Positions 5,139-35,419 of a DNA stretch of 35,706 nucleotides are shown one piece after another (positions within the stretch are counted from its first letter, which is position 1; every line of letters starts with the position of its first letter). The stretch is taken from the NCBI GenBank assembly GCA_002699025.1, contig PABA01000094.1:1-35706 (forward strand), written 5' to 3'. Made by a program: the position numbers and the translations under genes. Origin of the DNA: Sandaracinus sp. (GTDB lineage Bacteria > Myxococcota_A > Polyangia > Polyangiales > Houyiibacteriaceae). The notes below the pieces were generated by a model. That model did no database searches. It worked only from the letters and a program-made list of their open reading frames with translations, and was not told where the DNA came from.

Positions 5139-6601
5139 CGCTCTTCGTCTCCGTCCCGGAGCGGCGTGGGCTCGGGCGCTTCGAGGTCGGCGGGCCAGTC
5201 CCCGCCGAGGGCGCGGTGGAGCTGGATGCGGCGCGACACGAGCTGCCGCTTCGCCGCCTGGAGGTTCAGCTGGGCGCCCTGCTGGGCGACGAGCGCCGTG
5301 AGCACCGGGAGGAAGTCGCTCAGGCCCGAGCGGTAGCGGTCGCGCGCGCTCGTCAGGGTCTCCTCGGCGATGGCGACCTGCTCCTCGAGGAGCTCCACGT
5401 TCCGCTTCTGCTGGCGCTCCTGCACCAGCGCGCCCTCGACCTCGAGGAGCGCGTTCAGCACGGTCTGCGAGAGCGTCTCGACCTGCGCCTGGAGCGCCGC
5501 CTCGTTCGCCTCCACCTGGCCGCGGCCGGCGAAGCCGTCGAAGAGGGGCACGGTGAGCGTCGCGCCGGCGTTGAAGGTCCAGTCGTTCGCGGTCTGGGCG
5601 CCGCGATCGGGGAAGGCCGGGCTGTCGAGCTCGTTGCGCTGCCAGGCGTAGCCCGGGGTCACGGAGAGGCGGATGCTCGGCAGGCGCGAGGCGATGGCCG
5701 AGCCGACCCGCCAGTCGGCGGCGCGCACCCGCTGCTGGGCGGCGCGCACGTCCGGGCGGGCCCAGACGACGGTGGCGGGGACGCCGGTCGCGGGCGTCGG
5801 GCCGAGGGGCGGGAACTGGTCGCGCGCCTCGAGGCCGCCGAGCTCGCTCGGGGGCTGGCCGAGGAGCACGGCGAGCTGCTGGACGAGGAGCGCGACCTCG
5901 TCGTCGACCAGCTCGAGCTGCGCGCGGGAGGCCTGCGTCTGGCGGCGCTGCTGGTGCACGTCGAGCGCGTTCGCGAGGCCCTGCTCGAAGCGGAGGCGCG
6001 TGAGCTCGAGGTAGCGCTCGTTCACCTCGAGCTGCTCGGCGAGGATGCGCTGGCGCGCGCGGGCGTCGACCACCGAGTACCAGGCCTCGGCGACCTGAGC
6101 GGAGGTGGAGAGCGCGAGCGTCTCGATGTCCAGGCGCGTGGCCTCCGCGTCGAGCTCGGCGGCCTCGTGTTGCCCACGCCAGCGGCCGAAGAGGTCGACC
6201 TCGTAGCTCACGGGGAGCGAGCCGCTGACCTGCAGCGAGCGCGACGTGCCGATGGCGCTGAAGCTGCGGTTGAAGCTCACGCCGCCCTGAGCGCTGACCT
6301 GCGGGTAGCGCGCGGCGGCGGCCTGGGTGGCGAGGGCGCGGGCCTGCTGGAGCGCGGCCCAGCGCGCGCGGAGGCTGACGTTGGCGCCGAGCGACTGCTC
6401 GACCAGCGCGTGCAGGGTCGGATCCTCGTAGCGGAGCCACCAGCGATCGTCGCCCTCCTCGGGGGCGGGCGCCGTGGCCGCGACCCCTTCCGCCGGCGGC
6501 GTGAAGCGATCCGGCATGGCGTAGTCCGGCTCGGGGGTCTCGACGCGCCCGTGCGGGAGGCAGCCGAGCGCGAAGGCCAGGAGCGGGGCGGCGCGCTTCA
6601 C
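5135..6601 (-). CDS. TolC/OprM-family outer membrane efflux protein
   Basis: This 488-residue protein is the outer-membrane channel of the tripartite pump. I chose the GTG at 6601 because it forms a GTGA overlap with the TetR stop and is followed at once by a signal sequence (VKRAAPLLAFALGC). Cys15 could be a lipoprotein acylation site, as in OprM/NodT proteins, although the lipobox (ALGC) is not ideal. Two internally similar halves follow, with the long Ala/Gln/Glu/Arg-rich helices of this family, for example SLRARWAALQQARALATQ and a later ARDRYRSGLSDFLPVLTALV. The second is the conserved Y-x-x-G-x-x-(D/N)-x-L motif near the end of each repeat. It lies between the regulator and the adaptor in the operon. 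Confidence 0.93.
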   Translation of the reverse strand: MKRAAPLLAFALGCLPHGRVETPEPDYAMPDRFTPPAEGVAATAPAPEEGDDRWWLRYEDPTLHALVEQSLGANVSLRARWAALQQARALATQAAAARYPQVSAQGGVSFNRSFSAIGTSRSLQVSGSLPVSYEVDLFGRWRGQHEAAELDAEATRLDIETLALSTSAQVAEAWYSVVDARARQRILAEQLEVNERYLELTRLRFEQGLANALDVHQQRRQTQASRAQLELVDDEVALLVQQLAVLLGQPPSELGGLEARDQFPPLGPTPATGVPATVVWARPDVRAAQQRVRAADWRVGSAIASRLPSIRLSVTPGYAWQRNELDSPAFPDRGAQTANDWTFNAGATLTVPLFDGFAGRGQVEANEAALQAQVETLSQTVLNALLEVEGALVQERQQKRNVELLEEQVAIAEETLTSARDRYRSGLSDFLPVLTALVAQQGAQLNLQAAKRQLVSRRIQLHRALGGDWPADLEAPEPTPLRDGDEER

Positions 6602-7287
6602 GAGGCGACCCCCTCGGCGGGGCTCGACGAGGAGCCGGGCGAAGCGGACGCCGGCGCGAGCGTGCGCCTCAGCGTGTCGCGGTGGAGGTCGGGGAGGCGC
6701 CCGAGCTCGACGGGCAGGCTGATGCGCTTGCTCACCGATTCGGCGTTCCGATGCATGAGCATGACCCCGAGGGTGCTGGACCAGATGTGCATGGCGTGGT
6801 GGGTGATGTCGATGTCGGCGCGGATGGAGCCGTCGCGCTGGCCGCGCTCGAGGGCGCGCACGAGCAGGCCGATCGTCTCGCGCACGCGGGCGCGGTAGCG
6901 CTGGAACGCCTCGCTCCGGTCGTCGATGCGCGGCTCGAGGAACCACTCGATCATGAAGCGGAAGACGTGTGGCGTGCGGCTCAGCTCGACGTGCCAGGCG
7001 TCGTGGAGCGCGAGGACCTCGCCCAGGCCGTCCTCGGCGGATTCGACGGCGGCCCGGAGCGCGGGGAGCTTCTCGGAGATGTTCCGCTCGGCGACGGCGG
7101 CGAAGAGGGCGTCCTTGCCCGCGAAGTAGAGGTAGAGCGTGCCCTTGCTGAGCTCGGCCGCGCGCGCGACCTCGTCCATGGTCAGGTGCCGGGCGCCGGT
7201 GCGCGCGATCACCTCGTCGGCGGCGCGCAGGATGGCTTCCCGGCGGGCTTCCTTTTCACGCTTTCGGCGGGCGGCGGCGACGCTCAT
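6598..7287 (-). CDS. TetR/AcrR-family regulator of the efflux operon
   Basis: This is a 229-residue regulator. The TetR N-terminal domain is clear: AILRAADEVIARTGARHLTM, then the helix-turn-helix at about residues 36-57 ending GTLYLYFAGKDALF. The C-terminal half would be the ligand pocket and dimer interface and gives no hint of ligand. The ATG at 7287 starts directly before the basic leader of the domain. An upstream in-frame start at 7383 would add 32 unlike residues and would lie across both candidate operators, so I did not use it. It is the first gene of the four-gene pump operon, its stop overlaps the next start by 4 bases, and the two dyads upstream suggest autoregulation together with control of the pump genes. 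Confidence 0.94.
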   Translation of the reverse strand: MSVAAARRKREKEARREAILRAADEVIARTGARHLTMDEVARAAELSKGTLYLYFAGKDALFAAVAERNISEKLPALRAAVESAEDGLGEVLALHDAWHVELSRTPHVFRFMIEWFLEPRIDDRSEAFQRYRARVRETIGLLVRALERGQRDGSIRADIDITHHAMHIWSSTLGVMLMHRNAESVSKRISLPVELGRLPDLHRDTLRRTLAPASASPGSSSSPAEGVAS

Positions 7288-32555: not shown

Positions 32556-33965
32556 GTGGAACGCCTCAGCTTCATGGACCGGTGGTACCTGCTCGCCGAG
32601 CGCCGCGAGACCCCGATGCACGTGGGCGGGCTCTGCCTGTTCACGGTCCCGGAGGAGGAGGACGAGGCCGAGTTCGTCCGCCGGCAGGTCGACATCCTGC
32701 GATCACCAGAGGACTGGCGGCCCCCTTTCGGCCACCGCCTGAAGGTCGGGCCGCTCGGTCCGGCGGGGCCGACCTACTGGGAGCCCGCCGAGCACCTCGA
32801 CGTCGACTACCACGTGCGGCACGTGGTGTTGTCCGAGCTCCGGCGCGAGGACGTGTTCGGGCTCACGGCGCGCCTTCACGAGAGCCTCCTCGATCGGCGC
32901 CGTCCCCTGTGGGAGGTGCACCTGATCGAGGGGCTTCCGGACCGCCGCGTCGCGCTCTACTCGAAGGTCCACCACGCGGCGATCGACGGCGTCAGCGCGG
33001 TCCGGCTCGCCCTGGAGATGATGTCGCCGGAGCCCGCGGAGCGGCACGACCGTTCCCCCTTCGCGCGGCACATCCACGAGCGGGCCGGCGCCGGGCGCGA
33101 CCGTCCCGAGCGCGAGCCGCCGACCCCGCGGGAGCTCGCTGCGGTGGCGGAGGGGCTCCACGAGAGCCTGGGCTCGCGCACCGGGCTGCTCGCGGGCCTC
33201 CGGACCTACGCCCGCGCCTGGTGGAGCGACGAGGCGCAGGCGCTCCCCACCGCGTGGACGCCCGAGCCCGAGACCCGGTTCGGGAACCGGATCTCCGGTC
33301 GGCGCAGCCTCGTCGGGCACTCCTGTTCGCTGTCCCGGGTGCGGGCGGTGGGCAAGGCGCTCGGCGGCACCCTCAACGACGTCGTCCTCGCGATGTGCGG
33401 GGGCGCGCTCCGCCGCTATCTGGATGTGCGGGGGGAGCTGCCGGAGCAGCCGCTCAGGGCGATGGCCCCGGTCTCGCTCCGCACCGAGGAGCGCGGGAGG
33501 GTCGGCAACGCGGTCGGCGCGCTCGTCGCGAACCTCGGCACGCACCTGTCCGATCCCGGGGCGCGCTTCGAGGCCGTGGCCGCGTCGATGAGCGCGGGCA
33601 AGGCACTGCTCCGCGGGATGAGCGCGAGGGAGATCGAGCTCTTCACTCTGCTCACCCTGACCCCCGCCCAGCTCGCCGCCGTGCTCGGGTTCGGTGACCG
33701 CTTCTCGCCCTACAGCGTCGTGGTCTCGAACGTGCGGGGGCCGCGCGAGCGCCAGTACTGGAACGGCGCCTGCCTCGACGGCCTGTACGCGATGGGCGGC
33801 ATCTCCCACGGCTGCGCGCTCAACATCACGCTGCTGTCGAACGCCGACCGGCTCGACTTCGGGATCCTCGCGTGCCGCGACGTGGTGCCCGATGCGCAGC
33901 GCCTGAGCGACGACCTCCGGTGCGCTCTCGAAGACCTCGAGCGCGCGGCCGGGCTCGCGACGTGA
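32556..33965 (+). CDS. Wax ester synthase/diacylglycerol acyltransferase (WS/DGAT family)
   Basis: This is a 469-residue acyltransferase. The active-site motif HHAAIDG occupies 139-145, where H140 and D144 form the catalytic dyad of HHxxxDG. Other family segments are PLWEVHLIEGL (117-127), LNDVVLAMCGGALRRYL, and VVSNVRGPRERQYW near the end. The enzyme transfers acyl groups from acyl-CoA to alcohols or diacylglycerol, making storage lipid on the inner membrane face. The GTG at 32556 is used because MERLSFMDRWYLL plus TPMHVG is the usual opening. The ATG six codons later would cut it. No ribosome site is visible. Confidence 0.93.
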   Translation: MERLSFMDRWYLLAERRETPMHVGGLCLFTVPEEEDEAEFVRRQVDILRSPEDWRPPFGHRLKVGPLGPAGPTYWEPAEHLDVDYHVRHVVLSELRREDVFGLTARLHESLLDRRRPLWEVHLIEGLPDRRVALYSKVHHAAIDGVSAVRLALEMMSPEPAERHDRSPFARHIHERAGAGRDRPEREPPTPRELAAVAEGLHESLGSRTGLLAGLRTYARAWWSDEAQALPTAWTPEPETRFGNRISGRRSLVGHSCSLSRVRAVGKALGGTLNDVVLAMCGGALRRYLDVRGELPEQPLRAMAPVSLRTEERGRVGNAVGALVANLGTHLSDPGARFEAVAASMSAGKALLRGMSAREIELFTLLTLTPAQLAAVLGFGDRFSPYSVVVSNVRGPRERQYWNGACLDGLYAMGGISHGCALNITLLSNADRLDFGILACRDVVPDAQRLSDDLRCALEDLERAAGLAT

Positions 33966-34054
33966 GAGGAGCCTGACGTCGCTCGGGGCGTCTGGGATGC
34001 GCTCGAGACCCGGCGTACCGCGGCGACATCGAGAGGTGGAAGCGCGCCGTCGAC

Positions 34055-34330
34055 GTGTTGATGGACTCGGCCCTCGAGGAGACCGAGTCCCTGCGCGGCT
34101 TCGGGCTCAGCACTGCCGACGTCCAGGCTGTCGGTCGCACCCTGGCGGAGGAGCACGCGCTCCTGACCGAGGCGGCGTCGGGCCGGACCCTGTCGGAGGC
34201 GCTGAAGGTGGAGGTGTCGGCCTTCGACGTCGCCAACGCCATCACGGCGACCGCGCGCACGCGACCCGCCGCCGCTCGGCTCTCGATGGAAGAGACCGGG
34301 CACCGCTACCTCGTCCGTCAGACGGGGTAG
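34055..34330 (+). CDS. Hypothetical protein or 3' remnant of a broken gene
   Basis: This 91-residue frame starts with GTG TTG ATG, and the first visible strong feature is MDSALEETESLRGFGLSTAD. Upstream the same frame reads DPAYRGDIERWKRAVDV without a start. A neighbouring frame upstream reads EEPDVARGVWDALE up to 34007, which would join smoothly if one base were missing near 34007. So this may be the tail of an older gene with a frameshift and a lost 5' end. I do not recognise the family. It lies between the WS/DGAT gene and the HEPN gene. Confidence 0.4.
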   Translation: MLMDSALEETESLRGFGLSTADVQAVGRTLAEEHALLTEAASGRTLSEALKVEVSAFDVANAITATARTRPAAARLSMEETGHRYLVRQTG

Positions 34331-34429
34331 CGTGGAGCCGCCCTCGTCGGGCGGTTCCTTTGCTCCATCGTCTGAACGTTGATGGCCGTCGACGACGACC
34401 GAATACGAAGCGCGCGGCGTCGCTGGCAG

Positions 34430-35068
34430 TCAGGGAACGATGGTGAAGGCAGCCGCGCGCAGAACAGCTATCGAATGCTCGAAGATGGTCGTACCCGCAA
34501 CCCTGTGGGCGGAGAGAAAGCGGCCTGTCGTAAGCCCCCTCATCGACCTGGTGCTAAGGCCGTAGGGCTGCCTCTGCACCAGCGTGCGAAAGTCCTGCCA
34601 TGCCTGGTCGCTCTTGTGTGCGACGGCGTTTCTTATCTTCTTGAGGCGGCGTACATCTCCCAACGGGTTGCCCGCCAGGTTAGCGAAACGGTGGTTCGGT
34701 CCGAGGAGGGCGTCAGCGCGCTGCTTGACCGCATCGATACTCGACCACTCCACCCACTTGCCTTCATCGGGATGCTCGGTGATCAACTGAGCCAATCGCA
34801 TGTGGGATTGCTTGAGTCGGAAGCCGGTCGCCTTGACCTCCTTGCGAAGGACGCCGTGGGGGTCGACCGAAACCTCGTGAATGAGCAGTCGACGCAGAAA
34901 CTGCTCCCAGTAGGTCCATCCACTCAGGAACAGGCCCTCCGTGGTCTTGTGGAGGTCGGGAAACGAGAGGGGCCGACCTCTACCCGCGTTGGCCACCAGC
35001 TTCCCGAAGGCGCTCGCAACATGGTCGAGCGTGCCTTCCAGGTCGGTTCGGATGTCGACGGCGGTCAC
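34430..35068 (-). CDS. HEPN-domain RNase-like protein (MAE_28990/RiboL-PSP-like)
   Basis: This is a 212-residue protein. The HEPN nuclease motif R-x4-H is R146-N-A-V-A-H151. An earlier helix, SGWTYWEQFLRRLL, resembles the W-E motif of the MAE_28990 and RiboL-PSP HEPN groups. Proteins of this kind cleave RNA in toxin-antitoxin and phage-defence systems. The GTG start at 35068 overlaps the stop codon of a 21-codon open stretch upstream, so the gene once followed a co-translated partner. Two 60-base rows counted by hand here are 60% and 57% G+C (rows from 34621 and 34741), well below neighbouring genes, which suggests horizontal transfer. The target RNA is unknown. Confidence 0.8.
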   Translation of the reverse strand: MTAVDIRTDLEGTLDHVASAFGKLVANAGRGRPLSFPDLHKTTEGLFLSGWTYWEQFLRRLLIHEVSVDPHGVLRKEVKATGFRLKQSHMRLAQLITEHPDEGKWVEWSSIDAVKQRADALLGPNHRFANLAGNPLGDVRRLKKIRNAVAHKSDQAWQDFRTLVQRQPYGLSTRSMRGLTTGRFLSAHRVAGTTIFEHSIAVLRAAAFTIVP

Positions 35069-35130
35069 TGGGGCCTCACGTAGAAGTTGGTCACGCGCTT
35101 GCCGTGATCGTCACCGGCGACGTTGCGATG
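35065..35130 (-). pseudogene. C-terminal tail of a lost upstream partner of the HEPN gene
   Basis: On the minus strand, 21 codons reading HRNVAGDDHGKRVTNFYVRP and a final Q lead to a TGA (35067-35065) that overlaps the HEPN GTG start. A TGA at 35133-35131 precedes them, and no ATG lies between. The stretch looks like a protein end rather than random sequence, and the 4-base overlap is the usual sign of a coupled pair. MAE_28990-type HEPN genes are, as I recall, often next to DUF262 genes, but nothing here proves which gene was lost. Confidence 0.45.
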
Positions 35131-35272
35131 TCAAGCGAGACGGCGGTTGGGAAACGGCAGCCCACTCCTCCTATCAGCGGGTGAACCGGGACGACCCCGC
35201 CGTGCTCCCGCGCGGCCACGTCTCGACACCACCCCGCGGGCGAAGCCCCGCACCAACCTCTGGAGGAACACC

Positions 35273-35419
35273 ATGAACGAGAACCAGACCGACAACCCCT
35301 ACGGCGACCCCTTCTACAAGCGCGTCGCCAAGGACGACGGCGTCCAGCGCGCGGCGGCCGGCGTGGTCGTCGCCGTCATCGTGGCCGGGGCCAAGGAGCT
35401 GCTCTTCGGCAGCAAGTGA
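35273..35419 (+). CDS. Small single-span membrane protein
   Basis: This is a 48-residue protein. A polar, acidic N-terminus (MNENQTDNPYGDPFYKRVAK) is followed by one hydrophobic segment (AAAGVVVAVIVAGAKELLF) and a short basic end. An AGGA site lies 6 bases before the ATG. A longer frame from 35123 adds a basic stretch without support. No known family. A strong hairpin follows 22 bases after the stop. Confidence 0.65.
   Translation: MNENQTDNPYGDPFYKRVAKDDGVQRAAAGVVVAVIVAGAKELLFGSK

Follow-up and report, generated by a model that had tools for sequence, protein, structure and literature searches.

The HEPN family RiboL-PSP was placed near AbiF and AbiD in the founding survey (Anantharaman et al., 2013; PMC3710099), where some members are fused to an L-PSP domain or share an operon with ParB, neither arrangement being obligatory. 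HEPN domains of the corresponding Pfam type (PF18735) are listed in the proven anti-phage systems PD-T4-2, PD-T4-5, PD-T7-3, and ApeA (PMC10952713). Of these, PD-T4-5 is a plasmid-borne gene that is distantly related to AbiF/D and acts by abortive infection (PMC9519451). AbiF of Clostridioides difficile is reported to be restrained by an adjacent non-coding RNA (PMC12373285). The gene considered here lies near the end of a 35,706-nucleotide stretch of Sandaracinus sp. DNA (contig PABA01000094.1, the whole of which is called the window below). It is a real, intact, and horizontally acquired HEPN gene of a known kind, which a preliminary description had taken for the leftover of a two-gene defence or toxin-antitoxin system. 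It is probably a member of a solitary, RiboL-PSP/AbiF-D-like HEPN group, inserted alone, as cargo, into an element-like region, where it separates a DUF932 gene from a small open reading frame (ORF). The features are collected in Table 1.

The window protein belongs to the HEPN superfamily, as the preliminary description had proposed, since its helical bundle has the HEPN fold and contains the R-x4-H motif (R146-NAVA-H151). An AlphaFold2 model built from 18 aligned sequences is nearly all helix, with a predicted local distance difference test score (pLDDT) of 92 and a predicted template modelling score (pTM) of 0.88. When the Foldseek candidates were re-aligned to this model, the top 14 rows were all toxins of HEPN/MNT pairs or other HEPN-fold proteins (e.g., HI0074 and YutE; Z 7.8-9.5), and Csm6 and an integron-cassette HEPN ranked below them. 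The link to the RiboL-PSP family comes from the relatives: of the eight aligned members, seven match the Pfam model HEPN_RiboL-PSP (PF18735), the lowest E-value being 1.1e-5. The homologue from a Pseudomonas amygdali plasmid (L004) scores 23.3 bits (E 6.8e-5), under the gathering cut-off of 28.4 bits, and a distant homologue from Sulfitobacter (L005) scores 29.3 bits, above it. The window protein thus resembles the RiboL-PSP family in having R-x4-H in an all-helical protein of ~210 residues whose homologues match PF18735. It differs in that its own sequence is too diverged to match that model and that it and its orthologues are single-domain proteins with variable neighbours, no L-PSP fusion or ParB neighbour having been seen. 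PD-T4-5 and PD-T7-3 are likewise described with PF18735-type HEPN domains (PMC9519451; PMC10952713), but the window protein is matched by no PADLOC model.

Several points weigh against the reading of the gene given above. Searched alone, the window protein has no significant match in Pfam, PADLOC, NCBIfam, or PDB sequences; it does not match PF18735 at E 0.1, and no PADLOC model fits it. Foldseek returned nothing for the model at E 0.001 in the PDB, and for a helical protein a Z of ~9 is modest. The search itself accounts for part of the conservation of R-x4-H among L007-L025, as one of its patterns was IRNA[VI]AHK; L004 and L005, both found without a motif pattern, carry the motif too. Matches to the PADLOC RTasHEPN model were discarded, as they spanned just ~30-40 residues around R-x4-H with weak scores.

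Within its 9.24-Mb genome the gene is present in a single copy. The first full-length homologue, L004, was found with tblastn and is 42% identical to the window protein. A genome scan, in which a two-sequence alignment served as query together with two search patterns, yielded seven further orthologues (39-51% identity) as well as twelve distant relatives. These seven come from Betaproteobacteria, Hydrogenophaga, Defluviicoccus, Dokdonella, Acetobacteraceae, Pseudomonas punonensis, and Phycisphaeraceae, so that all eight orthologues (39-51% identity) belong to other classes and phyla than the window host. The subfamily is sparse: the pattern scan covered 84,980 species genomes and found a handful of orthologues, and no other true carrier was found among 377 searched genomes of the same phylum, two weak matches there (L002 and L003) lying in unrelated or wrong-frame ORFs and being due to chance. 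A scan of viral contigs returned no relatives, and Escherichia coli genomes gave no DNA match. The orthologous start sites align with the GTG start assigned to the window gene; one copy (L013) is interrupted. Both R146 and H151, whose conservation the preliminary description had made a test of its claim, are invariant in 18 sequences. In alignments A3 and A4, N147, K152, and S153 are invariant as well, as are V211-P212 at the C-terminus in A4.

The serine at position 153 bears on mechanism. HEPN/MNT toxins carry the extended motif RX4HXY, in which the tyrosine two residues after the histidine is the site of AMPylation. A HEPN/MNT origin, in which an MNT antitoxin AMPylated this tyrosine and its gene was later lost, agrees with the structural comparison, since HEPN toxins of such pairs are the closest matches among solved structures: SO_3166 and HI0074 (PDB 5yep and 1jog) share the HEPN fold with the window protein at Z 8.9-9.5. 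However, the RX4HXY tyrosine is missing from the window protein, and no MNT gene was recognised near it, nor any MNT-like gene in the orthologue neighbourhoods that were inspected. The corresponding residue is serine in the window protein and in all relatives in A3 and A4; the HEPN/MNT mechanism is therefore rejected, and a lost MNT partner is scarcely credible.

The extent of the transferred unit is shown most clearly by two pairs of close orthologues. Over the whole HEPN gene, L007 matches L008 at 82% identity, and nothing recognisable is common to their flanks (600 nt on either side). For L004 and L012 the figure is 79%, and the only shared flanking sequence is 28 nt directly before the start. 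As similarity ends at the gene ends in both pairs, the mobile unit is a single ORF, at most with its ribosome-binding leader. Neighbouring genes differ at every orthologous locus, and include recombinase genes and a DUF4352-like gene (L004), a phage-type integrase (L011), an AAA ATPase (L009), and a DnaJ-domain gene (L010, Dokdonella). The P. punonensis orthologue (L012) overlaps a 76-nt attC-like site (6625-6700; CCCTAAC...GTTAGGC) and looks like an integron-type gene cassette. A described counterpart is Vpc_cass2 (PDB 3jrt), a HEPN-fold protein that travels as solo cassette cargo. It resembles the present case in fold (Z 6.0) and in the attC-like site that follows L012, but is of another family, and a simple pattern scan found no attC site around the window gene. 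Downstream of the Dokdonella orthologue lies an array of 16-nt tandem repeats (GAAATCCCGGGTCACG; L010:8456-8631).

The start of the window gene had prompted a different reading, according to which a deletion removed the upstream partner of a two-gene defence or toxin-antitoxin system and left the last 21 codons of its gene. The 21-codon run reads HRNVAGDDHGKRVTNFYVRPQ up to its stop (end form DDHGKRVTNFYVRPQ), and its TGA does overlap the GTG start of the HEPN gene in a GTGA; together with the open frame and an insert junction close to where the run begins, this is what speaks for a lost partner. A stop codon bounds the run at its 5' end, and no start codon occurs within it. Such a configuration is expected by chance: the window has 291 GTGA/ATGA sites, of which 67% come after an open stretch of 21 codons or more and 38% after such a stretch without a start, and local dinucleotide composition gives an expectation of 0.64 for 21 open codons. 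The overlap and the run thus stand as described, but not the interpretation of the run as a protein end; GTGA arises simply because the GTG start happens to be followed by A. The orthologues L009, L011, and L013 also begin with ATGA, and in L009 and L011 the gene is preceded by longer start-less or unrelated open runs.

Comparison with other genomes leads to the same conclusion. None of the eight orthologues has a coupled ORF upstream or a tail-like sequence, an outcome that the preliminary description itself had named as refuting its claim, and the single-ORF unit of transfer argues further against a missing partner. When the tail is aligned with the 2.5 kb upstream of the eight orthologues, most of its scores fall inside the spread given by ten shuffled copies; they slightly exceed all ten in L007, L012, and L013, though never at a gene-end-like place before the HEPN start. 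The expectation that the family of the lost gene could be recovered from the tail was not borne out, as the peptide matches nothing in plasmids or phages and, at a meaningful E-value, only itself in its own genome. Its sole match in 56 related genomes (G017; E 0.15) lies in a reading frame that a stop codon interrupts, and was set aside as chance. The tail lies inside the insert, within the 95 nt that separate the HEPN start from the backbone, and holds a GAGG ribosome-binding core 5 nt before the GTG. The stop codon at the opening of the run coincides in part with a TTGACA hexamer, which has no good -10 element, and a promoter scan of the leader reported none. The simplest reading is that the run is ordinary non-coding leader DNA, and a truncated two-gene system is very unlikely.

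The main rival is that an adjacent non-coding RNA restrains the HEPN protein in the manner of a type III-like antitoxin, as reported for AbiF, given that a solo toxin lacking an antitoxin protein needs some restraint. AbiF/Abi_2 with its RNA antitoxin (PMC12373285) resembles the window protein in being a HEPN toxin with a reported distant relationship to the RiboL-PSP family (PMC3710099), but the window protein has no Abi_2 Pfam match and no conserved adjacent RNA. In the two close orthologue pairs, no conserved non-coding DNA lies within 600 nt of the gene, which speaks against a conserved antitoxin RNA close to the gene, although not against one that evolves fast or lies farther away. No Rfam match reached the gathering score in six orthologous loci, and the window shows just two weak sub-threshold matches. 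An RNA antitoxin is thus improbable.

That the gene is a foreign insert of lower GC content, as first described, is borne out by both composition and synteny: GC is ~0.60-0.65 at the gene vs 0.70-0.77 in the surrounding DNA, and the gene is missing at the matching site in relatives. Flanking DNA located this site in three genomes from the family of the window host (L041, L042, and L043). In L041 and L043, which lack the HEPN gene, 142-255 nt lie between a DUF932-type gene and the elements that come after it, a conserved motif (CCTATCAG...) and a small ORF (MNEN...). In L042, an unrelated ORF of 163 residues (6595-7086) takes the place of the HEPN gene, suggesting that the site is a cargo hotspot. 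The window matches this backbone until ~34376 and again from ~35152-35163; the HEPN gene is therefore an insert of roughly 790 bp. The right-hand junction, at ~35131-35170, is close to the stretch between ~35131 and 35190 where it had tentatively been put.

Table 1. Features of the HEPN locus (positions in the window).
Feature	Position	Strand	Remarks
Inserted DNA, approximate extent	34376-35163	none	Absent at the same place in L041 and L043; different cargo in L042
HEPN gene, RiboL-PSP-HEPN-like, intact	34430-35068	minus	GTG start, 212 residues
R-x4-H motif codons (R146-N-A-V-A-H151)	34616-34633	minus	Residue H+2 is Ser153, not Tyr
'Tail', 21-codon start-less open run	35069-35130	minus	Read as non-coding leader of the HEPN gene
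C-terminal remnant of DUF932-family gene	34018-34330	plus	5' part missing (~285 codons in L042)
Conserved backbone resumes	35163-35419	plus	Motif CCTATCAGCGGGTGAA at 35170-35185; small ORF MNENQ...AKELLFGSK at 35273-35419

The flanking region shows signs of its own history. The DUF932-family relative in L042 is ~400 residues long, and the full-length relative is assigned to DUF932. The window remnant directly follows an ORF of 469 residues (32556-33965), which, together with its missing 5' part, points to a second rearrangement junction near 33966-34018. A motif of the form CCTATCAGC[GA]GGTGAA, noted at window positions 35170-35185, in L041, L042, and L043, and in G000:C103, precedes the small ORF in the relatives, and a similar sequence precedes the DUF932 gene in L042 (5019-5060). 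These sequences may act as a common regulatory site of an element that carries DUF932 and RadC-like genes. A fuller copy of the DUF932 and RadC-like region is present on another contig of the same genome (L044; G000:C103:14000-27000), where an ORF of 690 residues lies upstream of the DUF932-like gene.

The fold, the conservation of the motif, the solo gene unit, and the insertion are established here, and by analogy the gene probably acts as a single-gene abortive-infection ribonuclease (RNase). The dimer, the RNase activity, and the phage trigger are predictions. The HEPN protein would dimerise, with R146 and H151 of the two subunits making a metal-independent RNase site, and would be inactive or poorly expressed before phage infection. 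Upon infection, it would cut RNA and growth would stop, as in abortive infection, without a protein partner. As a first guess, toxicity may be restrained by autoinhibition or low expression. The wider proposal is more tentative: these genes might form a one-gene anti-phage HEPN subfamily outside the PADLOC models, which moves between phyla as a bare ORF (on a plasmid, in genomic islands, and in an integron-like cassette) and controls its own toxicity without a protein or RNA partner. A supposed orphaned two-gene system is struck off the list, and a sparse solitary HEPN subfamily, unrecognised by the PADLOC model library, is added to the candidates for single-gene defence.
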